In this document: one piece after another, positions 6,865-28,222 of the stretch
How the letters are laid out: the number at the start of each line of letters is the position of its first letter
Position numbering within the stretch: the stretch's first letter is position 1
Source: Candidatus Auribacterota bacterium
GTDB taxonomy: Bacteria; Auribacterota; JAFGBW01
DNA: 28,551 nt
NCBI GenBank assembly: GCA_016932965.1
Contig: JAFGBW010000075.1
Location: 1 to 28,551, forward strand
Direction of reading: 5' to 3'
Program-made: the position numbers and the translations under genes
Notes under the pieces: generated by a model
Seen by the model: only the letters and a program-made list of their open reading frames with translations
Database searches by the model: none
Told to the model about the DNA's origin: nothing

Positions 6865-6938
6865 GATGGCTCTATTTTGAAATACGGATTAATTGTTGTA
6901 CTTATTTATCATATTAATATTCTTCCCAATTCGTTTAA

Positions 6939-7080
6939 AATTAAGAATTGCGAATTTAAAACCCACCCCATCGCCCGCACTCATATTATTCTACACTTTC
7001 TTACCTGATTTTTCGATCTGAATCATTTATTCAATTTCAAAATATCCTTGTCTTTAATCTGAATTTCCCAATTCTTAATT
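6939..7080. repeat. Inverted pair of AATTAAGAATTG repeats in the pilB-exeA gap
   Basis: A 12-bp sequence, AATTAAGAATTG, at 6939-6950 is repeated in perfect inverted form at 7069-7080, with 118 bp between. The left copy is additionally bracketed by AATTCG and CGAATT. The pair belongs to the AT-rich repeat family found in other gaps of this window. It fills most of the 224-nt gap between pilB and the ExeA-like gene. No gene is visible between the arms. It could form a long stem-loop in the transcript or be the remnant of a small non-autonomous element. Confidence 0.6.
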
Positions 7081-7088
7081 ATAGAATA

Positions 7089-8897
7089 TCATTTCTTATT
7101 GAACCAGGCAGCCAGCTTCTGCTGATAATCTTCGACTATTTGCGGTTTAACATCCGCAATACGTGTCGGCATGATCGTACCAGATTTGGATATCTTTTCC
7201 TTCATTTCCATTTCATCTTTTTTACTTAAAACCTTTACCTCAGTAACGCGGGAAATTTCCTCGAGGGTTGTTTTTCCAGAAAGCACTTTTTCTATACCAT
7301 CCATGGCCAACGTTCTCATTCCCCTCTCAATGCAAAACTGCCTGAGTTCATGCGCCGCAGCGCCGCTCATGATTTTAGTTCTCACGTCATCATCCACGTT
7401 CAACACCTCATAAAGACCGATCCTTCCGGAATATCCGGTTTTACGGCATTCCGTGCATCCCATTCCTTTATAAATCTTATCTTTATCATCGCCTGAAATA
7501 TTCCATCTTTTTAAAACCGGTTCCGGAGGAACGTATTTCTCCTTGCAAAACTCACAAATGGTCCGGACAAGACGCTGCGCAATGATTCCGCTAACACTTG
7601 AGGCAATCAAAAACGGCTCGATTCCCATATTCTGTAAACGGGTGAGTGTGGAAGGCGCGTCATTTGTATGCAATGTTGTAAAAACTAGATGGCCTGTCAA
7701 GGCAGCCTGCATGCAAATGGATGCCGTCTCTGTATCACGGACTTCTCCAACCATCACGATATCAGGATCCTGTCGCAGAATAGCCCGCAATCCTGTGCTG
7801 AAATTAAGGCCCGTCTTCAGATTGACACTGATTTGCCGTATCAGATTCAGTTTATATTCAACGGGATCCTCAATAGTGATGATATGTTTTTCCACGGAGT
7901 TAACCCGGTTCAAGGTCGCATAAAGCGTGGTTGTCTTGCCGGAGCCAGTCGGTCCAGTGACCAGAATCACTCCATGGGGCTGGGAAATCATCCGTTCAAA
8001 CCGCATCAGCGATTCCTCATTGAAACCAAGATCCTCCAATTGCATTTGTGCTGTCTTCATGTTCAAAATACGGACCACTACATTTTCTCCATATATAGTA
8101 GGAACCGTGGCAATACGGGCATCGACCTGGGCTTTGGTGACCTCGATCTTAAAATTGCCGTCCTGGGGGATTCTTGATTCCGCGATATCCAGATTTGACA
8201 AAATTTTAAAACGGGAAATAACCGCATTCTGAAGATATTTAGGGAGAGAAGGAATTTCATACAAGATGCCGTCAATCCGGAAACGGATGCGAAGCATTTT
8301 GTCATCCGGTTCGATATGGATATCAGAAGCGCGGTCGTTGACGGCCTGAAACAGAACCAGATTGACCAACCGGGTGACCGGCGAATCCTCACTGAGGCTT
8401 GTGACATCCCTTCCCTGCTCACCCTTACTCATGGCGGTGACGATCCCGCCCATTTCATCTGTTGCCTTATAACTTTTCAGAATGGCTTCTTCGATATCCA
8501 CACGTGCGGACAGACAAGGCTCTATTTCACAGCCTGTGATAGAGGATATCTGATCAATTCCATTGACATCAGACGGGTCAGACATGGCTATAGACAGGCG
8601 ATTCCCGATAGTGAAAATAGGAATAGCCTTGAATTTCTGTGCTGATTCCTTTGGGACTTTTTCCAGGACCTTGGGATCGCAGACATATTCGCTCAGGTTT
8701 ACGTACGGAACCCCCAGTTTTTCGGCAATGGCCGTAAATAACGTTTCTTTCTCTATACCGAAATTATCAATGAGTATATCTATAAAAGAGACCCCTGATT
8801 CCTCAGAATTGCTCATGGCCTCGTCAAATTCTTCCTTGGCCAGTAATCCACTGGCAACCAAATGATCCCCTATTTCATAGGCATTGTCTTCTAACAT
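7089..8897 (-). CDS. pilB: PilB/GspE-type pilus assembly or secretion ATPase
   Basis: This hexameric cytoplasmic ATPase drives pilin or pseudopilin polymerisation. It has 602 residues. An N-terminal MshEN/GspE-N domain spans about 10-140 (EIGDHLVASGLLAKEEFDEA; LGVPYVNLSEY). The ATPase core follows: SDIHIEP at 191-197, Walker A GPTGSGKT at 315-322, the Asp-box IEDPVEYKL at 342-350, Walker B DIVMVGEVRD at 379-388 and the His-box TGHLVFTTLHTN at 401-412. Zinc-binding cysteines are at 448, 451, 481 and 484. A charged tail of about 50 residues extends past the usual end (KKDEMEMKEKISKSG...). A strong promoter lies 41 nt or so upstream. The downstream partners are the ExeA-like ATPase, a regulator and pilC. 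The retraction motor pilT and pilins are not in the window, so PilB versus GspE stays open. Confidence 0.94.
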   Translation of the reverse strand: MLEDNAYEIGDHLVASGLLAKEEFDEAMSNSEESGVSFIDILIDNFGIEKETLFTAIAEKLGVPYVNLSEYVCDPKVLEKVPKESAQKFKAIPIFTIGNRLSIAMSDPSDVNGIDQISSITGCEIEPCLSARVDIEEAILKSYKATDEMGGIVTAMSKGEQGRDVTSLSEDSPVTRLVNLVLFQAVNDRASDIHIEPDDKMLRIRFRIDGILYEIPSLPKYLQNAVISRFKILSNLDIAESRIPQDGNFKIEVTKAQVDARIATVPTIYGENVVVRILNMKTAQMQLEDLGFNEESLMRFERMISQPHGVILVTGPTGSGKTTTLYATLNRVNSVEKHIITIEDPVEYKLNLIRQISVNLKTGLNFSTGLRAILRQDPDIVMVGEVRDTETASICMQAALTGHLVFTTLHTNDAPSTLTRLQNMGIEPFLIASSVSGIIAQRLVRTICEFCKEKYVPPEPVLKRWNISGDDKDKIYKGMGCTECRKTGYSGRIGLYEVLNVDDDVRTKIMSGAAAHELRQFCIERGMRTLAMDGIEKVLSGKTTLEEISRVTEVKVLSKKDEMEMKEKISKSGTIMPTRIADVKPQIVEDYQQKLAAWFNKK

Positions 8898-12424: not shown

Positions 12425-14239
12425 ATGACTTCAACACGGGCTTTTATTTTTTTAGACACGGTTGCATCCGGGCCGCAGCAAAAACATTCATATGTTTTTT
12501 CCGATCCCGTCCTAGAATTGACGGCTGAAAAATACGAAGAACTCAACCCTTTACTAGACCAGATCCAGGATCACGCTAAAAAATACTGGCTTTGCGGTTA
12601 TCTTGCCTACGAAGCCGCCTATGTTCTCGAAGAAAAACTAATGCCTTTCACATCGCCCCACCCCCCAAATCCATTGGCATGGTTTGGAATTTTTGAATCC
12701 CCCTGCGTCTTTGACCATCAAAAAAAACAATGGAATCACCCCCCTTCTTTTCCTGATGCCGGCAAAGTCTTGCCAATCTCACCACAATTGCCTGAAATCC
12801 GCAGTCAACTTTCCGAGAAGAATTACGTTAAAACCATCCAGGAGATAAAGAAAAAAATAAAAATGGGGGACATTTATCAAATCAACTTCACCTATGATTA
12901 TTCCATCCGCAGTGGCCTCGACGATTGGACCATGTATCAAATCTTCCGAGAAAGACAAAAGGCCCCTTTTTCAGCTTTCATACGGAACAAATATCTGACT
13001 CTTCTTTCTTTTTCTCCGGAGATGTTTTTCACGATAAAAAACCGGATCATCTGGACTCAACCCATGAAAGGGACAGAAAAACGGGGCCGGTATGAACAAG
13101 AGGATAAAAAACTCTTTCACGGCCTTTCCATGGATAAAAAAAATCAAAGTGAAAATGTCATGATCGTGGATCTATTGAGGAATGATCTGGGTAAGATCTG
13201 TGAGACTGGTTCCATCAAAGTTTCAAAATTATTTGAGGTCACAAGCTACCCCACCCTCCATCAAATGACCTCAACCATTTCCGGCAGATTACCCCCCTGT
13301 ACGACATTCAAAAAAATCATTCAAAATATTTTTCCGTCCGGCTCGGTTACAGGAGCTCCGAAAATCCGCTCCATGGAATGGATTCATTCTTTCGAAAAAG
13401 GAAGACGCGAAGTATACTGCGGAGCCATCGGATTCATTTCCCCGCGCATGAAAAAGGCTGTCTTCAGTGTACCGATCCGCATCCTTCAAAAACATAATCA
13501 TGACAAAGCATGGCAGTATCGTGTTGGAAGCGGAATTGTCTGGGATTCCGATCCTGTTTCCGAATGGAATGAATGCCTCACGAAATGCTCATTCCTGACA
13601 GAACCCGCACCTCTTTTCATGATCATGGAATCCATCTTATGGAATGGAAAAAGCCTGGTCTATCTTCAGGAACATTCCAGGCGGCTGAAAAATTCCGCCA
13701 GGTTTCTCGGGTATCCTTGTCTCGAAAACAAATGGAAACAGGCCATTCAATCCATCCTCAACCGCTTGAAAGGCACAAACAGAAAAAAAGTGCGGATTTT
13801 TCTCGATAAGGAAGGAAAGTTCCGCTGGGATTTTTCTCCATTAAACGATTTAAAAAAAGCCAAAATACATGAAATTCTTCTTTCCAAGGTTCCTGTGGAT
13901 GAAAACAACCGTTTTCTGTTTCATAAAACCACGTTTCGTCCCTGGTACGAGCAAGCCATGAAAAACATCAAAAACGGAAAATGTTTTGACGTGATATTCA
14001 TGAATTCAAAAGGACAAATCACTGAAGGCTCCATTACCAATATCTTCATTCAAAAAGGGGATGGTTTATTCACACCAGATGTGACCTGCGGACTTCTGCC
14101 TGGAATTTTACGTCAGCGCCTGCTCAAGAAAAAAAAATGCAGGGAAGCCGTCATTCATGAACACGATTTATTTTCAGCAGACGCCATCTTCTGCGGGAAT
14201 TCCGTCCGGGGACTAGTCCGCGTAAAATTGAAAGAATAA
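12425..14239 (+). CDS. pabB: PabB-PabC fusion: aminodeoxychorismate synthase component I / 4-amino-4-deoxychorismate lyase
   Basis: This 604-residue two-domain enzyme makes p-aminobenzoate for folate. Residues 1-390 are a chorismate-binding PabB domain: GDIYQINFT at 149-155, SPEMFF, QPMKGTEKRG with Lys215, VMIVDLLRNDLGKICETGSIKV, and SGSVTGAPKIRSMEWI. Lys215 in the PxKGT motif is the PabB-type residue; anthranilate synthases have Ala there, as trpE in this window does. Residues 400-604 are a class IV PLP fold: candidate PLP lysine Lys501 in FLFHKTTFR, then EGSITNIFI and CGLLPGILRQRLL. The glutamine amidotransferase partner (PabA) is not adjacent; TrpG encoded at 24248-24814 may serve both. 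It ends 6 nt from the convergent alpha-2-macroglobulin gene. Confidence 0.95.
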   Translation: MTSTRAFIFLDTVASGPQQKHSYVFSDPVLELTAEKYEELNPLLDQIQDHAKKYWLCGYLAYEAAYVLEEKLMPFTSPHPPNPLAWFGIFESPCVFDHQKKQWNHPPSFPDAGKVLPISPQLPEIRSQLSEKNYVKTIQEIKKKIKMGDIYQINFTYDYSIRSGLDDWTMYQIFRERQKAPFSAFIRNKYLTLLSFSPEMFFTIKNRIIWTQPMKGTEKRGRYEQEDKKLFHGLSMDKKNQSENVMIVDLLRNDLGKICETGSIKVSKLFEVTSYPTLHQMTSTISGRLPPCTTFKKIIQNIFPSGSVTGAPKIRSMEWIHSFEKGRREVYCGAIGFISPRMKKAVFSVPIRILQKHNHDKAWQYRVGSGIVWDSDPVSEWNECLTKCSFLTEPAPLFMIMESILWNGKSLVYLQEHSRRLKNSARFLGYPCLENKWKQAIQSILNRLKGTNRKKVRIFLDKEGKFRWDFSPLNDLKKAKIHEILLSKVPVDENNRFLFHKTTFRPWYEQAMKNIKNGKCFDVIFMNSKGQITEGSITNIFIQKGDGLFTPDVTCGLLPGILRQRLLKKKKCREAVIHEHDLFSADAIFCGNSVRGLVRVKLKE

Positions 14240-14254
14240 AGAAATTTATTCTTT
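14231..14254. terminator. Perfect palindrome holding the stop codons of two convergent genes
   Basis: AAAGAATAAA (14231-14240) and TTTATTCTTT (14245-14254) form a perfect 10-bp inverted repeat around a GAAA tetraloop. The pabB-pabC stop codon lies in the left arm and the stop of the opposite-strand alpha-2-macroglobulin gene lies in the right arm, so both proteins end in Lys-Glu-stop. The stem is AT-rich, which makes it a weak candidate for a bidirectional terminator. The geometry itself is seen directly. Confidence 0.5.
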
Positions 14255-17200
14255 GACATTGATCTTGAATCCGGCGCTGTGCGCTGTCATTTCCGGCGCG
14301 TACATGGACTGGAGTGTCGCTGCTCCGACCCGATACGTCCCAGGTTTGGTCGGTTTCAGACGGTATTTGAGAACATATTCACCGTGCGGGATACGGTCAA
14401 AGAAAAAATTGGTCAGAGAATCTCTGGGTTCCTCATAACACCATAAGGGTTCCCATTTCCATCCGCTCAGAAGGTTTTCAGCTTCAAAACCGGCAGCTTT
14501 GGGATCTTTCAAATGCATATACTCAAAACGAGATCGCGTATTCACTTTCAAATGAACCTCAATCTGATCCCCTACAGAGACTTCCCCACCGCTTTTAATG
14601 GGCTTTAAATGATACTTATCCCCTTCCTTGACTCTCAAGAAAAAGGCCCGATGCAATTCCAGCAGTCCAGGAGCAGACTCAAAAGGCACCTGATTTGTCG
14701 AGTATGTCCAGGTCAGGGACGCAAAAGCGAAACCAGGTCCCTCTTTTTCAATTGTGGCTGAAGCTTGTTCATGCCCGATTTCAAATCCTTTTTCCTGCCA
14801 TCGTAAAGGTTTATCAAGAAAATCATCCGCCTTGACCAAAATCTTATCCTTTTTCTGTCCCCATTGAATCGTAAAAGATTCATCCTTGTCCAAGGCCCCG
14901 GTTTGGCTCAAATATCCCAGCAAGGAAAACACCGCCGCTGAAGAGGCTTTGGTGGATTTCCAAACGCATCCTTTTCGGTTGAAAAGCAACCACTGGACCA
15001 TACCTGGGATTCTTTTGTCTTCTGGACGTAATTCCTGTAAGGTCTTCAGGAAAAAGGCATGTTTCTCAACCGTATCCGAATACCAGATCCAGGAAAATTT
15101 TTCCGGAGTCCAGTAAACTCCGACAATCGGATCTTCCCTGGAACCATCAAGCGCCATGTCCAGAATCGAATCCGCCTTTTCCTTGGCTCCTAAACGCAGT
15201 AAAGTGAAAGCCAGATACGCCTTGCCGAAAGGAGTCATGCTGTGAAGATGTTTTTCCAAAAACACCACCCAGGCCTTGGCAGACTCTATTCCTATTTTTG
15301 CCTCGGGAAATTCCTTGATAGAAAAAGAGGTGACCACATAAGCGGCATAGGAAATCAAAGCCAGAGCTTCTTCCTCGGGTTTCAGACGAAGCGGAATAGT
15401 TGAATTGATATAATTCAACGCCTTACTGACCACATCAAGAGGAACCTCGACCCCATAACGCCTGGCTTCGGCAAAACCCGCCAATACGTATAATGTGATA
15501 TAAGGGTCATCCCTTCCGCCGGGCCACCAGGGAAAGGCTCCGCTGGAAAGCTGAGCTGAACGCAGCTTATCCAGATTGATCTGTTTCTGTTTTTCCACGA
15601 CCTCAGGATTCAAAAGATCAATCACAGGAAAAACTGATGGTCTGCCTTCTGATTCATAAATCCAGGGGGTTTCCATGAGCGCGATCAATCTATTGGGATC
15701 CTCTTTCTCCCATTGGGGTGATGGGGTTGAACGTCTGGGAATTTTTGAGACCGCATTTTTCAGGTTCGGATAGGTTTGATAAATCTGGTTCATGACAGAG
15801 AGAGGCACGTATTTATTGAGAAGCTGTTCCACACATTCATGAGGATACTGGACAAGAAACGGAATGGCATTTAAGAGAGTCAATGCCAGCTGCGGTTCCA
15901 CCTGGAGCACCATGCTTTCATTGATGCGCGTCTTATCGTCAGGAAGCTTGATTTCCAGTTTTTTACTCACATTGCCGGACAAGGCTGCAAAGGCTGATTC
16001 AATGAGTCTTTCTCTTGAAGGCAGAATCGGCAGGTCCCTTTCCTCTGCGTCGGAAAGGCCCGATGATACTGCCGCCACTTTCACTTTATATTGACTCACT
16101 CCTTCAGGGATCTCCACCTTCCAGTTACAGGCAGTTAGTCCATGGGGTTTGACTGTGAATTGCTGTCCAGGATTAGTCAGTTTCAGCTTCTGATTAACTG
16201 AGATATTCTTTTCACGAATATCCATCACGACTGAGCCCTGTATTTCACGGTCAGTTTCATTGTGTATGACAGCCGTCACTGTTCCGCAATCCTTTTCGCG
16301 GAAGAAACGGGGTATGTCAGCCCTGACCATCAAATCCTTTTTTGTGACCGCCTCTTCTTCCAAGCTACCTTCACAGACATCTTGATTAAAGGCCCAGACT
16401 TTGACTTTCCAACTGGTCAGCTGTTCAGGCGAAACAAATGAAAAAGACGCCGATCCATCCTTGTCTGTCACCAGATGCGGAATGAAAAAAGCCGTATCCG
16501 AGAAAGCTTTCCTGGTTTGAACTTCTGGCGGCATGTCCTGCGAAAAATGATCTTTTCCTATTCCGCGCTCCTGGGATTCAGGCCTTAACTTCCTATCAAG
16601 CCTATTGTCGATAACAGCGCTTGATTTTTCTTCTTCTCTTTTCATTTTACCCTCATCCACGGGAGCGGAGGCCGTCTGCAAAAAACCGTTTCCTTGCCCG
16701 CCGGGCAGCAAGCATTCCAGCCCTTCCTCAGTGCTTCCAGTATAAGCCCAAGTTCTCCAGGTACGGAGCCCGGGCAATGCGGGTTCTACAGATTCTTTGC
16801 GAAAAGAATTCAATATTTTCTGCAGCATTCCTTCTGTTACAGGAAATGGAAAGACAGATGGATGAAAGACCGAATCCCTGCCGGAAGCTGGAAAAGGACG
16901 CAAAGCATATAAATCATCCAGCCAAAAATTTCCGCCTTTTCGGTAGTATTCCAGAGAACGGTCATACATCAAAGCAAGCGCCTCAGCCTTCACATGGTTA
17001 CCTTCTCTGTCACGGACAAGGAGCCCCCATTTAATGGTTGCACCGGGTTTCATGTCCTGAGAAAAAGGGCTCAAAGACACAGACAATTTCTTTTCCTTCC
17101 AGGGAACAGATACCGTGACCTGGCCGTGAACAAACTGAAGGTTTTTCACTCCAAACCAGCGCAGGGTGAATCCGCCCTTTAGTTCCTCTGTAACAGGAAC

Positions 17201-20200
17201 TTCCAAAAGGGAAACAGGAATACCTTTTTCCATGAATTCACTTTTCACTAAATATCCTCCTGCCCAAAGTTCAAGAACATAAAAACCATCAGCCAGGTGT
17301 GACCCCACAACAAAGCGGGCTGTTTCCCCGACCTCATACTTATCTCTTTCAGACAGAGTCACGGAAAAAGCCTGCACAGGAACAGGAGCTTTTGCATCTT
17401 TAGCCACGATGAATATCTTCTCCTGTGAAATGGTTTCACCTTTATCCTTCATTCTCTCAATGAGTCTGTATACTCCGGCAGGCAGGGGATCAAGCACAAA
17501 CACAACCTTGCCTTTCTGGTCATGTTTGATAACGCCTTTTTGCATTCTTTTATGATTTTTCACATCTTTAAACTGGATATCCAGGCTGGGAACCCAATTC
17601 CATTCGTTTTGATATCTCCAGTTATTCTCTCCCAATGGAGTTGCCGGCACTGCCACAAGAGAATAAACTTCATAGGTTGCTTTTCCTTCACAAGGCGTAT
17701 CATTCACTGTCAGGAGCTTTGATTCGATGTGAATGGGATTATTTTCCAGATCAAAACCATTGAACGGGTCAATAATGAAATACATGGATTTTTTCCCGCA
17801 GCGGTAGGATTCCCTGCATTCAATGGTTCTGCCTCCTGAATCTTTTGCCTCAACTTCGATTAAAAATTCAGTGATTTCAGGGATCTGGCTGTTGTAAGTA
17901 TTTTCCTGGGGACGGGGCGGCGTGAATGGAATTGAAAAACCGCCTTCCTCATCTGTTTTGACTTCACCGGATGCGATTTCCTGGGCTGATCCATAAGAAG
18001 AATTATAAAACCAGGAACGGTAGAACCAGGGAACATAAGCTTGTTTTTTTATTCGATACTTAACCGTCGCGTCCGGAACCGGTCCGCCGAAATAATACGC
18101 GGCAGATCCTTTGATTTCAACCGGTTCATTGTATTTCCAGGGGGTTTCAGTCTTTTTTAATTTGATTTCGAATTCAGGTCTTTTATATTCCTCGACAGAA
18201 AAAGACACCCTGCGGCTGAATGACACCTTGCCTTTTTTTTCAGAATCCTCATTGCATGAGGCTTCCAACGTATATTGCCCCAAAAGTTTTCCGGTAGGAA
18301 TCTCAAACTCAATACTCGCGCTTCCAAAATCATTGACCGGAACATTGTCTTTTTTGAACCATTCCTTCCAGTTGCAGTCCCTGGCAATGAAAGTGAGCTT
18401 TTTTCCAGCCTCCATGGTTTTGAAACCATGAGAAGACCGCCTCACCACAACAGCCTTTGCTTGCACCTTGTGTCCGGGCCGGTAAATAGGTCTGTCCATT
18501 TCAATGAATATTTCAACAGGATGAAGCGGGGTATAATTAAACCAAAGCGGACGATTCCAAAAAGAAAACGATGATTTGTTCTTTGCCAGAGGAGACAGAT
18601 TAAAATAACTGTGCTGATAAGGATAAATCCAGACAGGCATCTCCAAAGATGCCATGCCTTTTGAATCAGAAGTGAGGTCAACCCATTCATTTTTATATTC
18701 AGGTCCGCTTCTATTAACATGAATGTTCAATCCTGTCCCGGGGACACATTTGCCTGTCACGGCATTCAAGCTGTAAAACCGGCATCCGGAATCCCTGATG
18801 GAATCAATCGTCTTCCAGTCATCACAGGCCTGATACGTTTTCAAACTGAATCCCGGCGTTCCGATAAGGACCAGATCTGAAATATTTAAAAAGCAGGTTT
18901 GAAGAAGAAAACTGCCGGCGTTAAAAGAAGAATCAGAACAGGCAAGGATGAGATAGATCCCATGCTGCAGTTCAGGCGGAGTCTGCTTATTTATAGATAT
19001 ATATTTATGGGTGCCATCATCGGAAGTTTTGATATTCCATTCCTTGGACGGAGACTGATTTTTAAGCAAGTCATGTTTCAACCATGTCTTGAACCAGTCA
19101 TCATACCCGCAATGGGTCAAAAGATAATCCCATCCCTGGCCAGTCCAGTTGGGATTATATTTGATAAAAAACTCCTTGAGTTTATAGGGATCAATGCCAT
19201 AGGCCCGCAAATAGACCGTTTTTAAATTTCTGACCGTGAAATCAAAACATTCTTTGGCAGGAGGAAGAGTTGTTCTGACAGCCATTCCAAGGACGGGTCG
19301 TTCAATTTCCAGCTTAAGAGCAGAGGCTTTTTTTGCGATCAGGGTATCGGAATATTCCTGTTCTATCTGGCAGCATAATTCCACTGCCTGGGGAAACGCC
19401 TGATCTGAGTTCAGCATTTTTGCTTTTTCAAAAAGGTTTTCCGCCCTGGCAGCACTTGTCTGCAAATCCTTCAGCCAGTTATCCAGCACTTCAATCGCTC
19501 TTGTCCTGTAGATCTTATAATCCTTATTGTCTGTCACACTTCTGTCATCCGATAAGGTTCTGAAATCCATCAGATGTGTCTGATTCAAGGGCAGCATGAG
19601 CCGTTTTATTTTCCAACGTTCAGCAGCTTCCAGCCTCTTTTCACAGGCAAACCGGCCGGCTTCTTCAAAAATGGACGCGGTCTTGATCAATGGGGGATCC
19701 TTCCAATTTAAAGGGGCTTTCCATTCCCTGACCAGAAAAGGTTCCGGTCTGGGCTTGGCATCCTCTTTTGAAGCAGAAGCTTCTTCAACAAAATAATTGG
19801 AAATGGAAAAAACCGCATAATCAAACAAGGTTGGAAACATCCCAAAATCCACCTTGTCCAGGTTTAAAAAATAACCTTCTTCCTTCAAAGGGATCCCAAC
19901 CAAAACGCTTTTCATCTCCCAAAGAAGCTGATGGGTTTTTACAATCTGGATCCTGATCTCTTCAGGGGTCAGATGAAACACATTGGAATTTTCCTGCCCA
20001 TCCATCACATCGTGGTTCTGAAATGACCCGTACTGCATTAAAAAATTCCGGAACAATTCGGCTTTTAAAATCAAGATTCTGGCTTTATTTTTCTCTTCTG
20101 CAGGCAAGGGAGTTTCGATTAATTTCTGTGCCGCTTCCCCATACCGGAAGAGATGGGCCAGGCATTCGCAGATACGGAAGAAAGCCTTATACTGAACGGC

Positions 20201-20356
20201 TTCGTCATTGGCAGTTTTACGGATATCTTCATATTCTTTCATGGCTCCCTGAAAAACGCCCTTTTCAAAAAGCGTGTCTGCTTTCTGAAAGTCATCCGTC
20301 CAGGCAAACGGCAAAAACAGGAAAAAGGAACAAATCCAAAAAACAAAAGATCGCAT
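14246..20356 (-). CDS. Very large alpha-2-macroglobulin-like protein with thioester motif
   Basis: This 2036-residue exported protein belongs to the bacterial alpha-2-macroglobulin family, thought to trap foreign proteases in the periplasm by a bait and thioester mechanism. Start ATG 20356 follows GAGAGGAG; the frame continues to TTG 20374 but that codon lies in the ribosome site. A signal peptide (RSFVFWICSFFLFLPFAWT) has no lipobox cysteine, so unlike many relatives it is probably not a lipoprotein. A TPR-like N-terminal region is followed by macroglobulin-like beta domains, including the MG2 motif IEMDRPIYRPGHKV. A charged linker near 1240-1280, a plausible bait region, precedes the KAFSDTAFF block. 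The thioester motif CVEQ is at 1508-1511, preceded by Glu rather than the usual Gly. Alpha-helical thioester and C-terminal domains follow. No pbpC partner is adjacent. Confidence 0.93.
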   Translation of the reverse strand: MRSFVFWICSFFLFLPFAWTDDFQKADTLFEKGVFQGAMKEYEDIRKTANDEAVQYKAFFRICECLAHLFRYGEAAQKLIETPLPAEEKNKARILILKAELFRNFLMQYGSFQNHDVMDGQENSNVFHLTPEEIRIQIVKTHQLLWEMKSVLVGIPLKEEGYFLNLDKVDFGMFPTLFDYAVFSISNYFVEEASASKEDAKPRPEPFLVREWKAPLNWKDPPLIKTASIFEEAGRFACEKRLEAAERWKIKRLMLPLNQTHLMDFRTLSDDRSVTDNKDYKIYRTRAIEVLDNWLKDLQTSAARAENLFEKAKMLNSDQAFPQAVELCCQIEQEYSDTLIAKKASALKLEIERPVLGMAVRTTLPPAKECFDFTVRNLKTVYLRAYGIDPYKLKEFFIKYNPNWTGQGWDYLLTHCGYDDWFKTWLKHDLLKNQSPSKEWNIKTSDDGTHKYISINKQTPPELQHGIYLILACSDSSFNAGSFLLQTCFLNISDLVLIGTPGFSLKTYQACDDWKTIDSIRDSGCRFYSLNAVTGKCVPGTGLNIHVNRSGPEYKNEWVDLTSDSKGMASLEMPVWIYPYQHSYFNLSPLAKNKSSFSFWNRPLWFNYTPLHPVEIFIEMDRPIYRPGHKVQAKAVVVRRSSHGFKTMEAGKKLTFIARDCNWKEWFKKDNVPVNDFGSASIEFEIPTGKLLGQYTLEASCNEDSEKKGKVSFSRRVSFSVEEYKRPEFEIKLKKTETPWKYNEPVEIKGSAAYYFGGPVPDATVKYRIKKQAYVPWFYRSWFYNSSYGSAQEIASGEVKTDEEGGFSIPFTPPRPQENTYNSQIPEITEFLIEVEAKDSGGRTIECRESYRCGKKSMYFIIDPFNGFDLENNPIHIESKLLTVNDTPCEGKATYEVYSLVAVPATPLGENNWRYQNEWNWVPSLDIQFKDVKNHKRMQKGVIKHDQKGKVVFVLDPLPAGVYRLIERMKDKGETISQEKIFIVAKDAKAPVPVQAFSVTLSERDKYEVGETARFVVGSHLADGFYVLELWAGGYLVKSEFMEKGIPVSLLEVPVTEELKGGFTLRWFGVKNLQFVHGQVTVSVPWKEKKLSVSLSPFSQDMKPGATIKWGLLVRDREGNHVKAEALALMYDRSLEYYRKGGNFWLDDLYALRPFPASGRDSVFHPSVFPFPVTEGMLQKILNSFRKESVEPALPGLRTWRTWAYTGSTEEGLECLLPGGQGNGFLQTASAPVDEGKMKREEEKSSAVIDNRLDRKLRPESQERGIGKDHFSQDMPPEVQTRKAFSDTAFFIPHLVTDKDGSASFSFVSPEQLTSWKVKVWAFNQDVCEGSLEEEAVTKKDLMVRADIPRFFREKDCGTVTAVIHNETDREIQGSVVMDIREKNISVNQKLKLTNPGQQFTVKPHGLTACNWKVEIPEGVSQYKVKVAAVSSGLSDAEERDLPILPSRERLIESAFAALSGNVSKKLEIKLPDDKTRINESMVLQVEPQLALTLLNAIPFLVQYPHECVEQLLNKYVPLSVMNQIYQTYPNLKNAVSKIPRRSTPSPQWEKEDPNRLIALMETPWIYESEGRPSVFPVIDLLNPEVVEKQKQINLDKLRSAQLSSGAFPWWPGGRDDPYITLYVLAGFAEARRYGVEVPLDVVSKALNYINSTIPLRLKPEEEALALISYAAYVVTSFSIKEFPEAKIGIESAKAWVVFLEKHLHSMTPFGKAYLAFTLLRLGAKEKADSILDMALDGSREDPIVGVYWTPEKFSWIWYSDTVEKHAFFLKTLQELRPEDKRIPGMVQWLLFNRKGCVWKSTKASSAAVFSLLGYLSQTGALDKDESFTIQWGQKKDKILVKADDFLDKPLRWQEKGFEIGHEQASATIEKEGPGFAFASLTWTYSTNQVPFESAPGLLELHRAFFLRVKEGDKYHLKPIKSGGEVSVGDQIEVHLKVNTRSRFEYMHLKDPKAAGFEAENLLSGWKWEPLWCYEEPRDSLTNFFFDRIPHGEYVLKYRLKPTKPGTYRVGAATLQSMYAPEMTAHSAGFKINVKE

Positions 20357-20364
20357 GATTGTTT

Positions 20365-20372
20365 CTCCTCTC
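20365..20372 (-). promoter_or_regulatory. Ribosome binding site of the alpha-2-macroglobulin gene
   Basis: On the minus strand GAGAGGAG stands 8 nt before the ATG at 20356. It decides the start: the upstream in-frame TTG at 20374 overlaps the site and would put six extra residues ahead of the signal peptide. Confidence 0.8.
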
Positions 20373-20383
20373 AACGTACGGGA

Positions 20384-20532: not shown

Positions 20533-20844
20533 AAACCGAACAATAGTGATCTAGTTCCATGAATGTCCGGCTTAAAAATAAAGAAATAACGTAAAACACA
20601 ATAAAATAGTGGAATTGATTAAAAATAAAAGGAAGCCGGACATAGAATTGAGGATCGAGAATTGAGAATTCAGAAGGGACGCCTTCGGCGTTTCGCATTG
20701 AATCATAAAATCATTAAGCTGCCTTGCAGCCCTTCTGGATACTGAATTCTCAATTCTGAATTCTTTAAACATCGCATAAAATAAAAACCTAAAAATAACA
20801 TAAAACAATAATTGAAAAATAAACCGGACACTAGTGATGTAGTT
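20533..20844. repeat. Composite repeat island bounded by 24-bp direct repeats
   Basis: A 24-bp sequence at 20533-20556 recurs in direct orientation at 20821-20844 with 3 mismatches (core TAGTGAT.TAGTT). Next to the left copy, ATGTCCGGCTT (20563-20573) and AAGCCGGACAT (20633-20643) are perfect 11-bp inverted repeats around an 81-bp AT-rich unit. A shortened, gapped version of that unit (TAAAAATAACATAAAACA..., ending CCGGACA) lies at about 20790-20830. Between them is a separate nested structure at 20658-20757. The whole looks like a degenerate non-autonomous element pair, with another small element inserted between the copies. No coding potential is credible here. Confidence 0.6.
20658..20757. 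repeat. Nested inverted repeat with two internal hairpins
   Basis: A perfect 16-bp inverted repeat (AGAATTGAGAATTCAG at 20658-20673, its complement at 20742-20757) encloses an AGAAGGG/CCCTTCT pair (20672-20678 with 20730-20736). Two tight hairpins lie inside: CGCC-TTC-GGCG at 20680-20690 and GCTGC-CTT-GCAGC at 20718-20730. The fold resembles a branched RNA or cruciform. The outer arms belong to the GAATTGAGAATT repeat family found in many gaps of this window, so a mobile repeat is more likely than a dedicated RNA gene. Confidence 0.6.
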
Positions 20845-21175: not shown

Positions 21176-21223
21176 GTAGTTATGTGTAAAAATATAAAAT
21201 TCAGGATATCCGGTAGCATCATT

Positions 21224-23950
21224 ATGAAAACGCTCCTGCGTTTAATTGTATTATTATCATGTATTATTTCTTCTGAAGCTGGTCAGAACAATTATTTAGC
21301 ACCGATATCCTTTACCAAGCTGAACCATGCGGATAACGATGTTGAAATACATCGTTTTAATAATTGGCTGACACTTGAAGACTCAATTAAAAATATACAA
21401 AAAGCCTTTGAAATCAATCGTCCGGATATCATCGAACGCTATACACATCTTGATAAGTTATCCGCTGACGAGCTGGCACTGTTAACAGATGATATTTATC
21501 AGCTTAGTCATGGTCATTTTAAAATCTGGAACATAGGCTCTGCCTTACACCCTAAAGTAAGATTTTTTAATGGAAGTTATATCAATGCCCTTATTGCAGT
21601 TTTTCCAAAATTAAATCTCAATCCCTTTGGATTTAGACTGAACTGGTCCACCCGGGATACAGCGATTGAATCCATTCAATACGTCTTTAATAAACATATC
21701 CCTGAAATCCTTGAGAAATACAGACGTCTTGATGAATTAAAAGAGGAAGAAATCGAAAGACTAAAGGAAAGGATCTACGGTATTAGTTTTGCCCATTTTT
21801 CTATGTGGGGACTCGCCAGCACTACCGATCAGAGGAAAACCCCCTATTTTGATGGTACATTTGCAGGAGTCATGCAGGCCGTTTTCCCAAGATTGAATCT
21901 TCATCCTCTTGGTTTCCAGTTAGATGGAACTTCAAGGGAAAAAAAGCTGGAATCAATAAAATTTGTTCTTGAAAAAAAAATACCGGAAATATTCCGGAAA
22001 TACAGACGGTTATCAGAATTGTCTGCTGCGCGAATTGAAAGATTAAAAAATGAGATCTATGCAATCACAGGGGCACAGTACAATATTTGGGGATTACATG
22101 CGATGCATTTTGGCAATACCTATGTCGATGCACTATGTGCCATTTTCCCAGACTTGGAACTGGATCCTCTGGGATTCAAATTAAATTGGTCTTCTGAAGC
22201 CATGGCGATTCAATCCATCCGCTTTGTTCTGAAAAGGGAAAGACCCGGTTTGGTAGAGACCTACGACAGTATTGACTCCATCTCAGATGGAGAAATCTCC
22301 AGTCTAAAGGAAAGAATTTATTCCATCACTTCCTATCATTTTCAGATATGGAATCTGTCATCAGCTATGAATACAAGGCACGCCCCATACTTTAACGGCA
22401 GCTATGTTTCAGCTCTTCATCGGGTTTTCAGTAATCCAAAACTCAGTTTTGACGAAAATGAATTCATGAAAAATCGTCATAGCCAATGGGAAATGAAATA
22501 CAGTTGGACGCAAGGATTAGAAGCTTGTATTGCAAATGTCAGGGATGCTATACAGGAGAATAAGCCGGACCTTTTATCAAGATATGCCAAGCTGGATTCA
22601 CTCCCTGCAGAAGAAGCAGAAGAATTAAAAGATGATATTTATCAGATAACCTATGGACATTTTGGCATTTGGGGTATTGCATCCGCAACCCATAAAGATC
22701 ATGTCCCCTATTTTCAAGGAAGCATTGTAGTTGCGTTGCAATATGTTTTTCCCCGATTGCATTTAAATCCACTGGGATTCCAGCTCAACTGGAGCAATTA
22801 TGAAACATCTCTTGAATCCATACGATATGTCCTCTGGAAACAAAGACCAGACCTTATGAATAAATATGAACACTATACCTCTCTAAGCATTGAGGAACGT
22901 AATGATCTGATAGCTGATATTTATAAGATCGGTTCCGACGAATTCATGTTGTGGGGAATCTCCAATCTGGATTTTTTTGAAGGAAGCTATATTCCGGCAT
23001 TACAAGCCGTTTTTCCTGATTTAAAGTTAAATCCACTGGGGTTTCGCCTTGATTATTCTACAAAAGAACGTGTCAAGGCTTCTCTAGAATATTCTTTAAG
23101 AAAAAATATTCCACAGGTACTGGAAGCTTATGATCGGATAGAGGAATTAAGCCCTGCAAAGATTGAAGTTCTGAGAAGGAATGTTTATAAAATCACCGCG
23201 GCTCATTTCCAGATTTGGCATCTGGGAGATATCCTGACACGGGATACGGCTCCTGAATATGAGGGCAGTTATATCAGCGTCTTACAGGATTTTTTTCCAG
23301 AACTTCATCTGAATCGATTGGGTTTTCAATTGGATTGGTCTGATAAAGACAAGGCAATTGCATCGATCCGGTTTGTTCTTTCAAAAGAAATTCCTGAGCT
23401 CATCAAAAGCTATGATTCACGGGCGACTCTTAAACCTGCAGAACTTGAAAGATTAAAAAAGAATATCTATTCCATATCCTATGGGCATTTCAAACTCTGG
23501 GGTCTTAGCGGCGCTGCAAACCGAGAGAACTCCCCTTATTTCAACGGAAGTTTCATTAATGCACTGATGGAAGTTTTTCCTGACATTGGACTCGAAAAAG
23601 CTGGATTTGGACTTGACTGGTCCTCGTTAACATCGGCTGTTGAATCAATCCGATTTAAATTACTTGAAACCGCCCCGGAATTGATGGAATCCTACTCAAG
23701 GATAGAATCAATGCCACCTGATTTACTGGACGCTTTACGAAATGACATTTACGCCATAGGACCGCAAAAAATCAGAGACTGGGGATTAAAGATGTCTCTG
23801 GATCCGAAATCAGCGCCTTATTTTAACGGAGATTTCAGGGATGTTCTGATGCAGACTTTTAATCATCCGTTACTTGCTTTAGATAAAAATCGTTTCTTAA
23901 AGAAATCCCGTAATGTTTTAAAACCAAAAGAGGTGGAGACAAGCCCTTAA
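21224..23950 (+). CDS. Exported protein with nine copies of an unrecognised ~90-residue repeat
   Basis: I do not recognise this 908-residue protein (922 if the ATG at 21182 is used). I prefer ATG 21224 because it gives a clean signal peptide, MKTLLRLIVLLSCIISSEA; the LLSC within it could alternatively be a lipobox. Nine divergent repeats of about 86-95 residues fill the rest, beginning at about residues 48, 141, 236, 322, 428, 523, 611, 705 and 799. Each has an N-terminal helix (ESIRFVL..IPEL...Y), a second helix ending in IY.I, an h-F-x-x-W-G/N-L motif, a Y-F-N-G-S-Y-x-x-A-L motif and an ending VFP-x-L-x-L-x-P-L-G-F-x-L-D/N-W-S. Repeats 3 and 6 lack about eight residues before the YFNGS motif. 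No catalytic residue set is obvious; a binding or scaffold role is plausible. It stands alone, bracketed by inverted repeats. Confidence 0.85.
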   Translation: MKTLLRLIVLLSCIISSEAGQNNYLAPISFTKLNHADNDVEIHRFNNWLTLEDSIKNIQKAFEINRPDIIERYTHLDKLSADELALLTDDIYQLSHGHFKIWNIGSALHPKVRFFNGSYINALIAVFPKLNLNPFGFRLNWSTRDTAIESIQYVFNKHIPEILEKYRRLDELKEEEIERLKERIYGISFAHFSMWGLASTTDQRKTPYFDGTFAGVMQAVFPRLNLHPLGFQLDGTSREKKLESIKFVLEKKIPEIFRKYRRLSELSAARIERLKNEIYAITGAQYNIWGLHAMHFGNTYVDALCAIFPDLELDPLGFKLNWSSEAMAIQSIRFVLKRERPGLVETYDSIDSISDGEISSLKERIYSITSYHFQIWNLSSAMNTRHAPYFNGSYVSALHRVFSNPKLSFDENEFMKNRHSQWEMKYSWTQGLEACIANVRDAIQENKPDLLSRYAKLDSLPAEEAEELKDDIYQITYGHFGIWGIASATHKDHVPYFQGSIVVALQYVFPRLHLNPLGFQLNWSNYETSLESIRYVLWKQRPDLMNKYEHYTSLSIEERNDLIADIYKIGSDEFMLWGISNLDFFEGSYIPALQAVFPDLKLNPLGFRLDYSTKERVKASLEYSLRKNIPQVLEAYDRIEELSPAKIEVLRRNVYKITAAHFQIWHLGDILTRDTAPEYEGSYISVLQDFFPELHLNRLGFQLDWSDKDKAIASIRFVLSKEIPELIKSYDSRATLKPAELERLKKNIYSISYGHFKLWGLSGAANRENSPYFNGSFINALMEVFPDIGLEKAGFGLDWSSLTSAVESIRFKLLETAPELMESYSRIESMPPDLLDALRNDIYAIGPQKIRDWGLKMSLDPKSAPYFNGDFRDVLMQTFNHPLLALDKNRFLKKSRNVLKPKEVETSP

Positions 23951-24247: not shown

Positions 24248-24814
24248 CTAGAACTCGCAAAAATTCTTCAGCAAAGTGAAACCATGCTCAGTGAGAACGG
24301 ATTCAGGATGAAACTGGACGCCGAAAACAGGTGATTTCCTGTGCCGGACGCCCATGATCTCGCCGTCTTTGGTTCTGGCAATGATTTCCAGCTCTTTTTC
24401 AGGGAATGATTCCGGTTCAATGGCCAGGGAATGATACCGTGTGGCTTTGAATCCATCGGGAATATCTTTGAAGATGTCTTTCCCATTATGAAAAATCTGC
24501 GAAATTTTTCCGTGCATGATGGCTTTGGCGCTCACAATTTTTCCGCCGAACACTTCTCCGATGGCCTGATGGCCGAGACACACTCCCAGGATCGGTTTTT
24601 CTTCTTTAAACTGACGGATGATTTCCATGGAAATCCCGGCATCAAATGGCCTGCCGGGCCCAGGTGAAATCACGATCCTGTCCGGATTCATTTTTTTTAT
24701 ATCCGGGATACTGACCGCATTATTGCGGTAGACAACAACCTCATATCCGAGCTGAAAAAGGTACTGCACCAGGTTCCATGTGAAGGAGTCAAAATTATCT
24801 ATCATCAGGATCAT
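24248..24814 (-). CDS. trpG: Anthranilate synthase component II (glutamine amidotransferase)
   Basis: This 188-residue class I glutamine amidotransferase releases ammonia from glutamine and passes it to TrpE. The catalytic triad is visible: Cys79 in GVCLGHQAIGE, His169 and Glu171 in VQFHPESVLTEHG. The oxyanion loop SPGPGRPFDAG and the opening MILMIDNFDSFTWNLVQYL are standard. It starts with a 4-nt ATGA overlap with trpE, so the two are translationally coupled. Sequence alone does not separate TrpG from PabA; the trpE context makes TrpG the right name, but dual use with the PabB-PabC fusion at 12425-14239 is likely since no other copy is visible. Downstream is the GGGGACGTCC repeat unit; no trpD, C, F, B or A follows. 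Confidence 0.96.
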   Translation of the reverse strand: MILMIDNFDSFTWNLVQYLFQLGYEVVVYRNNAVSIPDIKKMNPDRIVISPGPGRPFDAGISMEIIRQFKEEKPILGVCLGHQAIGEVFGGKIVSAKAIMHGKISQIFHNGKDIFKDIPDGFKATRYHSLAIEPESFPEKELEIIARTKDGEIMGVRHRKSPVFGVQFHPESVLTEHGFTLLKNFCEF

Positions 24815-26292
24815 GGAGCCTCCTTCAGCGTCTGGGCAAGCTGAACAGCCCGGGCCATGGCTCCGGCCTTATTTTTCGTTTCCTCGTATTCGTTTTCGGG
24901 AACAGAATCAAACACCAGCCCGGCTCCAGCCTGAAAATAGGCGACATTCTCTTTCAATAAAATAGTACGAATGGTGATGCAGGAATCAAAATTGCCGCTG
25001 AAATCAAAATAACAAACAGACCCGGCATAGGGGCCGCGTTTCACAGATTCAAGCTCTTCGATGATTTCCATGGCGCGGATTTTTGGGGCCCCGGATACCG
25101 TACCTGCAGGAAAAGTCGCCCGGATCAAATCAAAGGCATCTTTATCATCCATGAGATCGCCCCGGACATTGGAAACAATATGAATGACGTGGGAATAACG
25201 CTCAATGACCATCAACTGGTCTACTTTCACGGACCCGGGTTTACAAACCCGGCCTATGTCATTTCTGGCCAGATCAACCAGCATCACATGTTCCGCGATT
25301 TCCTTTTGGTCATTCAGCAGTTCCTTCTCCATTTTCAGGTCACCTTCTTCGGTCCCTGTTCTCTTTCTGGTTCCGGCTATGGGACGAATGATGACCTCCC
25401 CCTTTTCCACTTTGACCATCACTTCCGGAGAGGCCCCCACGAGACTGAAATCAGGAAAATTAATGAGAAACATGTATGGTGAGGGATTGATCATTCTCAG
25501 CGCTCTATAGAGGCTCAAACTATCCCCGTTAAAGGGAAGACTGAAACGCTGGGAACCCACAATCTGAATGGCATCACCCCTGATGATATAATCCCTTGCC
25601 TTTTCAACCATCTGACAAAACTCTTGTTTGGTCATATTGGATGAATAATCCTGTTTCTCCACCTTCTCATGCAGACTCAATAGAGGCAAATCCAAAGCAT
25701 GATAAAACAGCTCTTCGATCTGACGGATGGACTCCTCAGCCTGATGATAAAGGGACTCAGCCTGTTTCTTATTATCAATGAACACATTGACAGTGAGACG
25801 GATCGTATGCCTGTAATGATCAAACATCACGATGGTCTTGGGGATGATGAAATACAAATCCGGCACCTCTTGTTCATCCTTTTGTTTCAAAGACAGGTCT
25901 TCAATACAGGCCACGATGTCATAACTGAGATACCCGACAGCTCCACCGCAGAATCCGGCAATACTGTCAAAATTGACCGGCTTATAGCGGCCAATCACCT
26001 GTTTAAGGACATCCATGGGATTTCCGGAAATGACGCTGGTTTCCCCGTCAAAATCCCTTACCATGGTTTCTCCCTTGAAATAGCAGATTGTAAATTTGGG
26101 GTCCATCCCGATAAAAGAATGCCTGCCGAACCGTTCGGAACATTCTACGGATTCCAGAATAAACGTGTAATTCTTGTTCAAGGCTGAAAAAAATCCGACC
26201 GGGGTGATGAAATCACAGGCCAGTTCTGTAGATAAGGCGATGACCGTATGATCATCGGCCAAGCTAAAAAATTGTTCTTTGGTTAAATTCAT
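24811..26292 (-). CDS. trpE: Anthranilate synthase component I
   Basis: This 493-residue enzyme converts chorismate and ammonia to anthranilate, the first step of tryptophan synthesis. The N-terminal FILESVECSERFGRHSFIG includes the LES tryptophan-binding element, so feedback inhibition by Trp is expected. The catalytic part has GDAIQIVGSQRF, PIAGTRKRGTEEGD with the Ala typical of TrpE, VMLVDLARNDIGRVCKPGSVKV, HIVSNVRGDL, and FPAGTVSGAPKIRAMEII. Two adjacent ATGs (26295 and 26292) are possible; AGGAG stands 1 nt before the first and 4 nt before the second, which favours the second. It overlaps trpG by 4 nt. A strong promoter lies immediately upstream, so it can be transcribed apart from the his genes. 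Confidence 0.97.
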   Translation of the reverse strand: MNLTKEQFFSLADDHTVIALSTELACDFITPVGFFSALNKNYTFILESVECSERFGRHSFIGMDPKFTICYFKGETMVRDFDGETSVISGNPMDVLKQVIGRYKPVNFDSIAGFCGGAVGYLSYDIVACIEDLSLKQKDEQEVPDLYFIIPKTIVMFDHYRHTIRLTVNVFIDNKKQAESLYHQAEESIRQIEELFYHALDLPLLSLHEKVEKQDYSSNMTKQEFCQMVEKARDYIIRGDAIQIVGSQRFSLPFNGDSLSLYRALRMINPSPYMFLINFPDFSLVGASPEVMVKVEKGEVIIRPIAGTRKRTGTEEGDLKMEKELLNDQKEIAEHVMLVDLARNDIGRVCKPGSVKVDQLMVIERYSHVIHIVSNVRGDLMDDKDAFDLIRATFPAGTVSGAPKIRAMEIIEELESVKRGPYAGSVCYFDFSGNFDSCITIRTILLKENVAYFQAGAGLVFDSVPENEYEETKNKAGAMARAVQLAQTLKEAP

Positions 26293-26316
26293 CATGCTCC
26301 TAAAAAATCGGAAGAT

Positions 26317-26345
26317 ATTATCTCAGGACAGTTTAATAGAGTCAA
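26317..26345 (-). promoter_or_regulatory. Sigma-70-type promoter of trpEG
   Basis: On the minus strand TTGACT (26340-26345) and GATAAT (26317-26322) are separated by 17 bp. Transcription would begin near 26310, leaving a leader of under 20 nt that holds only the AGGAG ribosome site. There is no room for a leader peptide or T-box, so tryptophan attenuation or tRNA sensing of this operon is unlikely. Confidence 0.75.
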
Positions 26346-26364
26346 CTCAAATGGAGGAACGAGA

Positions 26365-26482
26365 GTGGAATTAAGAAGTTATATTTCTATTTTATAAATA
26401 TTAGGGATCATCTTCCTTACTGCGGAATGTCATGGGCTTGTCTGGGACAAGCGATATTTTCAATTCTTAATTCTTACTTCTT
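26365..26482. repeat. AT-rich inverted repeat pair between hisI and trpE
   Basis: GGAATTAAGAAGTTA at about 26367-26381 and CAATTCTTAATTCTTACTTC at 26461-26480 are related in inverted orientation and belong to the dispersed GAATT repeat family. The right arm overlaps the 3' end of hisI, including its stop codon. Between them a perfect 7-bp hairpin, GCTTGTC-TGG-GACAAGC (26436-26452), lacks a T-run and is not a clear terminator. Confidence 0.55.
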
Positions 26483-26857
26483 ATACACTCCTTCAGGATC
26501 AAAACATTTCTTTCCCACGGTCCTGATCTGATCTCCCTCCAACGCCCTGTAAAAACAGGATTCATAGCCTTCATGACAGGCGCCGCCTTGTTGTTCCACT
26601 AAAAACAACAGGGCATCCACATCGCAGTCAAAACGCACTTCCTTCACCTTCTGGAAGTGGCCGGACGTTTCACCTTTGAGCCATAATTTCTTTCTGGAAC
26701 GGCTGTAATAACAGCATTTTTTTTCCTTCAATGTGTATTCCAGGGACTCCCGGTTCATGTAAGCGCACATCAACACTTCTTTTGAATGCGCATCCTGCAC
26801 CACTGCCAGAACCAAACCATTAGCATCCCATTTCACTTTATTCATAAAATCATTCAT
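26474..26857 (-). CDS. hisI: Phosphoribosyl-AMP cyclohydrolase
   Basis: This 127-residue cytoplasmic metalloenzyme opens the adenine ring of phosphoribosyl-AMP in histidine synthesis. The metal-binding DCDVD (Asp77, Asp79, Asp81) and the zinc cysteines Cys94 and Cys101 in [14 protein letters not shown] are present, as are [14 protein letters not shown] and [17 protein letters not shown]. It is the single-function form: the HisE pyrophosphohydrolase domain found fused in enterobacteria is absent and must be encoded elsewhere. AGGTGAG precedes the ATG, which overlaps the hisF stop by 4 nt. It ends the his part of the cluster; the stop codon is inside a dispersed AT-rich repeat. Confidence 0.97.
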
Positions 26858-27624
26858 AATCTCACCTCTATTCCTTTGTTTTTTAATGCTGTCTTGACTT
26901 CATTGACCGTCATTTCGTTGTAATGGAAGATGGAGGCAGCCAGCACCGCATCCGCCTTCCCCTTTTTCAGAACATCCGCCATGTGTTCAATCGTTCCTGC
27001 TCCGCCGGAAGCAATGACTGGAACTGAAACGAGTTTCGAAACAGTCTCGTATAAGGGGATATCATAACCTTTTTTCGTTCCGTCGCAATCCATGGAGGTG
27101 ATCAAAAGCTCTCCAGCCCCTCTCAGGCAGACCTCCTTTATCCACTCCAGGGCATCCTTACGGGTGTTGGTTCTCCCGCCGTGCGTATAAACTTCCCAGC
27201 CTTCCTCAGGATGCATGGGATTTTTTCGCTTCACATCCACCGCTACCACGATGCACTGTGATCCAAACTGCTCGGCCCCCTTATTGACCAGTTCAGGTTG
27301 ATTCACTGCCGCCGTGTTGACGGACACCTTATCCGCTCCTGAAAGCAGGATTTTCCTGATATCATCCATATTCCTGATCCCGCCTCCGACAGTCAGCGGC
27401 ATGAACACTTCATCGGCAGTCCTTCCCACCACGGAAAGAATGATGTCCCTCTTATCCGAGGAGGCGGTGATGTCCAGAAAAACCAGTTCATCCGCACCTT
27501 GCCTGTCATATTCCTTTGCGCAGTCCACCGGATCGCCTGCGTCCCGGATATCGACAAAGTTGATTCCTTTGACGACCCGGCCGTCCTTCACGTCCAGACA
27601 CGGAATGATTCTTTTAGCCAGCAC
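26854..27624 (-). CDS. hisF: Imidazole glycerol phosphate synthase, cyclase subunit
   Basis: This 256-residue (beta/alpha)8-barrel uses ammonia from HisH to convert PRFAR to imidazole glycerol phosphate and AICAR. Both catalytic aspartates sit at their standard positions, Asp11 in [15 protein letters not shown] and Asp130 in VVAVDVKRK. Phosphate-binding loops [12 protein letters not shown] and [13 protein letters not shown] are intact. The start codon is GTG at 27624, chosen because it gives the family-standard N-terminus [12 protein letters not shown]; a G-rich stretch (GGGGGG) lies about 9 nt upstream. It overlaps hisH by 11 nt and hisI by 4 nt, so hisH-hisF-hisI are tightly coupled. hisA, which usually lies between hisH and hisF, is absent. 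Confidence 0.98.
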
Positions 27625-28222
27625 AGGATTCCCCCCAGTTCTTCAAAAGACGCAATCCGTCTTTCTGACTCTTTTCCGGATGAAACTGAAAACCCAGCAT
27701 ATTGGCTCTATTGACCGCGGAAACATAATGGCCGTGATAATCCGTCTCACCCAGCATCACGGATTGATCACCAGGTTCCACTTTATACGAATGAACAAAA
27801 TAAAAATAACTTTTCTCGGGGATTCCTTCAACAAAAGGAGCATTTTGTCTGAATTGAACCTGGTTCCATCCCATCTGAGGAATCTTATAGCAGCCCTGAA
27901 AACGGACGACTTTCCCCTTTAAAAGGGAGAGCCCCCTCACACCGGGGGATTCTTCTGATTCCTCGAAAAGAAGCTGTAATCCAAGACAAATTCCCAGAAA
28001 AGGCACTCCTTTTCCTATCCGCTCTATCATGATTTCAGGGAAACCTTTATTTTCCAGCTGGCTCATGCAATCTCCAAAAGCGCCTACCCCTGGCAGAACG
28101 ATCCCTGAAGCTGAATTCAATTTTTCAGGCTGATTCACTATCTCTGCCTGCAAGCCAAGGGAGAGAAAGGCCTTGTGTACTGAACGAAGATTCCCCCTGC
28201 CGTAGTCGATGATGTGAATCAT
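27614..28222 (-). CDS. hisH: Imidazole glycerol phosphate synthase, glutamine amidotransferase subunit
   Basis: This 202-residue class I glutaminase supplies ammonia through the HisF barrel. The triad is Cys79 in [13 protein letters not shown], His181 and Glu183 in FQFHPEKSQ. Other hallmarks are [15 protein letters not shown], the [14 protein letters not shown] oxyanion region, IPQMGWNQV and [10 protein letters not shown]. Its last 11 nt overlap the GTG start of hisF, fitting the obligate 1:1 complex. It lies 141 nt downstream of hisB, with an inverted AT-rich repeat pair in the gap. No clear ribosome site precedes the ATG. Confidence 0.97.

Follow-up and report, generated by a model that had tools for sequence, protein, structure and literature searches.

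The repeat gene and its surroundings

The window, by which we mean the entire stretch of 28,551 nucleotides that was analysed, carries on its forward strand a gene whose product consists of a leader and an array of tandem units spanning residues 64-907, and of nothing else (Table 1). The frame encodes 922 aa plus stop and is free of internal stop codons, and an in-frame stop lies upstream of the gene (open frame of 938 codons). Translation likely begins at Met15, from which the sequence looks more signal-peptide-like; this in-frame methionine is also the start chosen in an earlier reading of the window made without database searches (hereafter the sequence-only reading). The N-terminus holds the sole hydrophobic segment of the protein, with a hydropathy maximum of 2.05 versus at most 1.06 elsewhere. 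The protein is apparently exported; hydropathy and sequence are in keeping with the signal peptide, followed by an array of modules, that the sequence-only reading had described. SPase I could possibly cleave between SEA and GQ, and a lipobox split between LLS and C is a weak alternative. The leader beyond this segment loosely resembles SNYSAPLSVVDLTSLK, located past the hydrophobic segment of a 2383-aa protein of Candidatus Theseobacter exili.

Housekeeping genes surround the repeat gene, together with a divergent one that is alpha-2-macroglobulin-like, and no conserved operon partner was found among them. The alpha-2-macroglobulin-like gene (14246-20374, reverse strand) encodes a 2042-aa protein of the bacterial type with a hydrophobic N-terminus, a CVEQ motif of thioester type and matches to MG2, the bait region, A2M and MG10; it is the only one of 12 neighbouring window genes whose product reaches a hydropathy of 2.0. 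Between the two divergent genes, at 20640-20770, lies a palindromic element of ~125 bp, MITE- or REP-like, which has at least 40 related copies in its own genome, many of them partial. The stretches at 12425-14239 (forward) and 24248-28222 (reverse) hold a gene of PabB-PabC type, in which a chorismate-binding and an aminotransferase class IV part are fused, along with distinct TrpE/TrpG-like genes and genes of histidine biosynthesis, while genes for a T2SS/type IV pilus-type ATPase, an AAA_22 protein, a sigma-54 activator and a T2SSF platform protein stand in a row at 3432-8897 (reverse).

Table 1. Features of the repeat gene, with window positions and residues of the 922-aa frame
Feature	Position	Strand	Residues	Basis or remark
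Complete ORF of repeat protein	21182..23950	+		922 aa, start likely 21224
Signal-peptide-like segment MKTLLRLIVLLSCIISSEA	21224..21280	+		hydropathy maximum plus sequence reading
Leader GQNNYLAPISFTKLN...	21281..21367	+		sequence reading
Unit 1, first-type of block A	21368..21646	+	64-155	profile; closest to first-type units
Unit 2	21647..21928	+	156-248	profile
Unit 3, short subtype	21929..22189	+	251-336	profile
Unit 4, last-type of block A, VFSNPKLSFDENEF	22190..22474	+	337-431	profile
Junction of blocks A and B, RHSQWEMKYSWTQGL; in other phyla ..YR...ERKYSW..	22475..22519	+		unit placement by profile
Unit 5, first-type of block B	22502..22792	+	446-537	profile; closest to first-type units
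Unit 6, short subtype	22793..23056	+	538-625	profile
Unit 7	23057..23338	+	626-719	profile
Unit 8	23339..23620	+	720-813	profile
Unit 9, last-type of block B, TFNHPLLALDKNRF	23621..23908	+	814-907	profile
C-terminal tail, short	23909..23947	+		protein ends with array

Nine units in two blocks

Searched with a profile of its own nine units, the window protein yields exactly nine contiguous copies, with domain E-values of 1.8e-32 to 2.1e-42 that reflect the presence of these same units in the profile; independent support comes from another genome, in whose proteins the profile detects 6-8 tandem copies at E-values down to 6e-36. The units are ~94 residues long and share a mean pairwise identity of 37.5% (range 26-52%). 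Units 3 and 6, at 87 and 88 aa, are without the stretch between WGL and YF, a matter of about seven loop residues. The motifs HFxxWGL, YFNGSYxxAL and VFPxLxLxPLGFxLDW recur in the units, and Y25, L39, W54 and F80 are invariant across a set of 25. The nine in-frame copies, the short subtype and the three motifs had all been read correctly from the letters. A search for two-fold symmetry inside the unit found none, and the array as a whole is not basic, with a net charge of -10.

What the sequence-only reading did not see is that its nine units, correct in number, do not form a uniform array: they fall into two blocks (1-4 and 5-9) with a junction between them and specialised first and last units. 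The usual order among the relatives is a block A of 3-5 units, a junction of ~15 residues ending in K-Y-S-W, and a block B of 3-5 units, and this layout with its KYSW junction is found in three phylum-level groups. The blocks measure 4+5 in the window, 4+4 (up to the end of the contig) and 3+3 in Theseobacter, 4+4, 4+4 and 5+3 in Omnitrophota, and 3+3 to 5+5 in Elusimicrobia. The Elusimicrobia junction reads ..VFxHPrLxLtxxGFkdYRkxxxERKYSWxT.. and that of the window VFSNPKLSFDENEFMKNRHSQWEMKYSW. By manual count, a single junction is present in 16 of 18 scorable arrays, a set that leaves out divergent, frameshifted and contig-cut arrays, and two junctions in the other two. Block sizes are equal or differ by one in 15 of the 16 single-junction arrays, many of which come from two related genomes and are not independent cases. 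On the strength of these sequences, the two-block arrangement that arrays usually take is a new finding of this work.

Block position (first, inner or last) tracks the unit tree far more closely than expected from within-protein shuffles (25 changes over all columns, where the shuffles need at least 67; 50 versus at least 68 over core columns only), an agreement that stems largely from orthologous arrays in related genomes. When one array set from three phyla was compared over core columns, the first-type class was weakly supported (11 of 300 shuffles) and the last-type class was not significant (110 of 300); last units do not form a separate clade once their defining ends are removed.

Distribution, host proteins and selection

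The array is single-copy in its own genome (3.14 Mb in 300 contigs), and the unit occurs in three of 44 genomes of the window's phylum, in 3 of 340 from the phylum of an Elusimicrobia MAG and in 9 of 384 from that of an Omnitrophota MAG. Relatives include two Elusimicrobia MAGs, whose genomes hold ~72 and ~71 copies, one Omnitrophota MAG and Candidatus Theseobacter exili, which the NCBI classification places in Candidatus Auribacterota, the phylum to which the window, from an uncultured bacterium, is taken to belong as well. Among ~340 bacteria outside the window's phylum, drawn from a 384-genome sample of relatives of the window genome, no credible unit was found; one match there (G952, E 4e-4) overlaps a frame read as endonuclease III and was taken as chance, because ~0.4 such matches are expected over 384 genomes. 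The phages, plasmids and viral contigs searched held no relatives. The unit thus defines a real but sporadic family, so far confined to three phylum-level groups.

Most relatives are giant mosaic ORFs (3417 aa in G013, 1741-2531 aa in G060 and 13,082 aa in G450). In Ca. Theseobacter exili, for example, the frame of 2383 aa has eight units besides its matches to PGK and GlpX-type FBPase, and another of 4551 aa contains six. All 11 complete relatives measured have a hydrophobic N-terminus (15-residue hydropathy maximum 2.03-2.79), and a further one (G472), although broken up between two frames, has units behind an N-terminus of the export type. The giant host proteins are therefore probably exported, as judged from their N-termini. 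Giant ORFs are described for Omnitrophota and other PVC phyla related to them (Seymour et al. 2023, PMC10066038; PMC12057145), and the unit of the window protein is embedded in such ORFs, in frames of 2000-13,082 aa with export-type N-termini and mosaic domains. The window ORF, at 2.77 kb, stays below the 20 kb that would mark a giant ORF and holds only leader and array. Giant Omnitrophota ORFs have been proposed to act in cell-cell adhesion, and the giant exported proteins found in ultra-small bacteria of the PVC group, which lack annotation over most of their length, are thought to serve attachment or predation (PMC10066038). A keyword search of the literature returned discussion of the giant ORFs of these phyla and no account of this repeat.

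Between the two Elusimicrobia genomes, orthologous nine-unit arrays share 88% protein identity (dN 0.059, dS 0.307, dN/dS 0.19) and are under purifying selection. This ratio, together with homologous units in three phylum-level groups, bears out the suggestion that the array is old and kept by selection. Ten columns stand out as the most variable (28, 33, 37, 44, 47, 51, 57, 60, 63 and 73). They show a dN/dS of 0.43 versus 0.17 elsewhere, with few changes (18.5 nonsynonymous), and were picked for variability in the same units; faster evolution at these positions is at most suggested. Some variation at the surface is to be expected of any repeat.

Relation to known families and folds

Neither the whole protein (searched against Pfam, NCBIfam, PHROGs and PADLOC, with no match reaching cut-off) nor 25 units taken singly against Pfam gave a curated match, the latter also lacking any consistent one, and profiles of 25 and 60 units had no consistent match in all PDB sequences. 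Low-scoring rows in the Pfam, NCBIfam, PHROG and PDB searches, for MinE, Dynamin_M, leuS_arch, bicaudal, septin and HIV reverse transcriptase p51, were dismissed as helix or chance matches. Profile searches of Pfam and the PDB sequences thus yielded no clear match to a described domain. With every library negative and confident models that match no solved fold (see below), the sequence-only reading was right to leave the protein outside any known family, and the repeat appears to be a previously undescribed one.

The one affinity it had faintly proposed, to HNH/homing-endonuclease-associated repeats, did not survive comparison. The GSYxxAL of the unit does resemble the GSWxxAL of PF18780 (HNH_repeat), but that repeat spans 54 positions and is nuclease-linked, whereas the window unit spans 94 in a protein with an export signal. 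PF18780 was absent among the matches of 25 single units up to E 5, from a scan of the whole window protein up to E 10 and from the window's own genome (0 matches). In a profile-profile comparison with hhalign, in which six copies from a same-phylum genome represented PF18780, only 10 columns around GSYxxAL aligned, at 1% probability, and we rejected homology on these grounds. The same likeness is what would recommend nucleic-acid binding as the role of the units, whether as repeats of this type or as distant relatives. So would an Omnitrophota frame (L095; G738:C32, 2105-8533, reverse strand) in which sigma-70 regions 2, 3 and 4, all above cut-off, precede eight units that are followed by hydrophobic stretches, and another (L097) in which unaided reading finds a helix-turn-helix-like stretch directly before the unit. 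We consider such a role very improbable in view of the PF18780 results, the export signals and the negative charge of the array.

AlphaFold2 predicts all-helical folds with high confidence for four units (window residues 57-437; pLDDT 90.8, pTM 0.72) and for two (units 7-8; pLDDT 94.3, pTM 0.84), and the two-unit model suggests definite packing between adjacent units. Each modelled unit contains helices of 15, ~8 and ~12 residues, one that bears HFxxWGL, another that is short, and one that bears GSYxxAL. Foldseek found no meaningful match to either model in the PDB (best E 0.69 and 4.8), the best E in BFVD was 0.8, and VIA-align gave Z-scores of at most 3.8 and 2.7; cullins, CAND1 and AP2, the top structural rows, were taken as generic helix packing. 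No known repeat fold was thus recovered for the modelled repeats in these searches, which for a confidently predicted helical repeat is unusual, yet no proof of a new fold.

The overall shape is probably solenoid-like, and a tandem all-helical repeat with predicted defined packing could be a TPR, HEAT/ARM, PPR or similar alpha-solenoid diverged too far for our searches, as can happen in such families. We think this rather unlikely. TPR, HEAT/ARM, PPR and Sel1 profiles were all missing among the matches listed for the 25 units, PDB sequence profiles did not reach them, and the structural comparisons gave only weak scores despite pLDDT values above 90. The unit is also longer than those of the alpha-solenoids, has six or more short helices and carries motifs of its own.

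A possible role for the array

We favour, with middling confidence, the view that the window protein is an exported scaffold for binding or spacing, a stand-alone form of a module otherwise built into giant proteins. Its N-terminus would send the chain over the inner membrane by Sec, and the nine units would then build a four-unit and a five-unit block, both solenoid-like, helical by prediction and curved by our assumption. The sequence shows the units, the blocks, each with its own first and last unit, and the short conserved junction between them, which would act as an elbow. Outside the cytoplasm, such arrays might hold a partner or carry domains at a distance. In the core, Y, W, F, GSY and LNPLGF would keep the fold intact, and variable positions near the HFxxWGL helix and the next loop may perhaps tune binding. 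A location outside the cell is less certain for some relatives because they contain typically cytoplasmic domains (sigma-70, PGK).

Alternatively, the units may be purely structural, non-binding rigid rods that set length in giant surface proteins, with the window gene a shortened relic that kept its signal peptide and rod. Unit number varies freely within blocks, arrays sit between unrelated domains, the window protein has only leader and array, and third-position G+C is 0.35 in its gene versus 0.46-0.59 in the neighbours, which suggests that this gene is recent or evolves differently. Specialised ends, conservation of the junction and blocks of nearly equal size point instead to a defined functional unit, and the window frame is intact, so that we regard this spacer reading as possible but doubtful. 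A bolder form of the favoured scaffold is unlikely in our judgement: a new helical fold in a modular extracellular recognition array, in which two arms of matched length, with 3-5 units each, grip an elongated partner and variable positions around the HFxxWGL helix set the specificity.

One recurrent module of giant exported proteins is now named, delimited, modelled with confidence and given a two-block grammar, and the 922-aa stand-alone version is small enough to be expressed and solved, so that the function of part of the giants becomes testable.

Several other features of the relatives deserve mention. The Theseobacter PGK and FBPase domains belong to a frame with an export-type N-terminus (L042, 3959-11110). 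The usual PGK motif is VRVDFNVP; here it reads VRVNMNVS, and with so divergent a motif this PGK may be inactive. The frame upstream of L095 (L105) ends, by reading, in another sigma-like stretch, and a frameshift in the record between the two is possible. Two giant proteins (L011 and L013) have, close to their repeats, a recurrent module SSHLFEDH..NGFIG...HELxHEA, whose HExxH motif resembles that of zinc proteases. Another recurrent module, IRDLHCQ/IQDAHG..EAQ..I...FLEG, which we take to be ChaN-like, follows the leader in giant and medium exported proteins (L042, L011, L094, L106 and L046-L049) and is also present in several medium proteins of the window's own genome.
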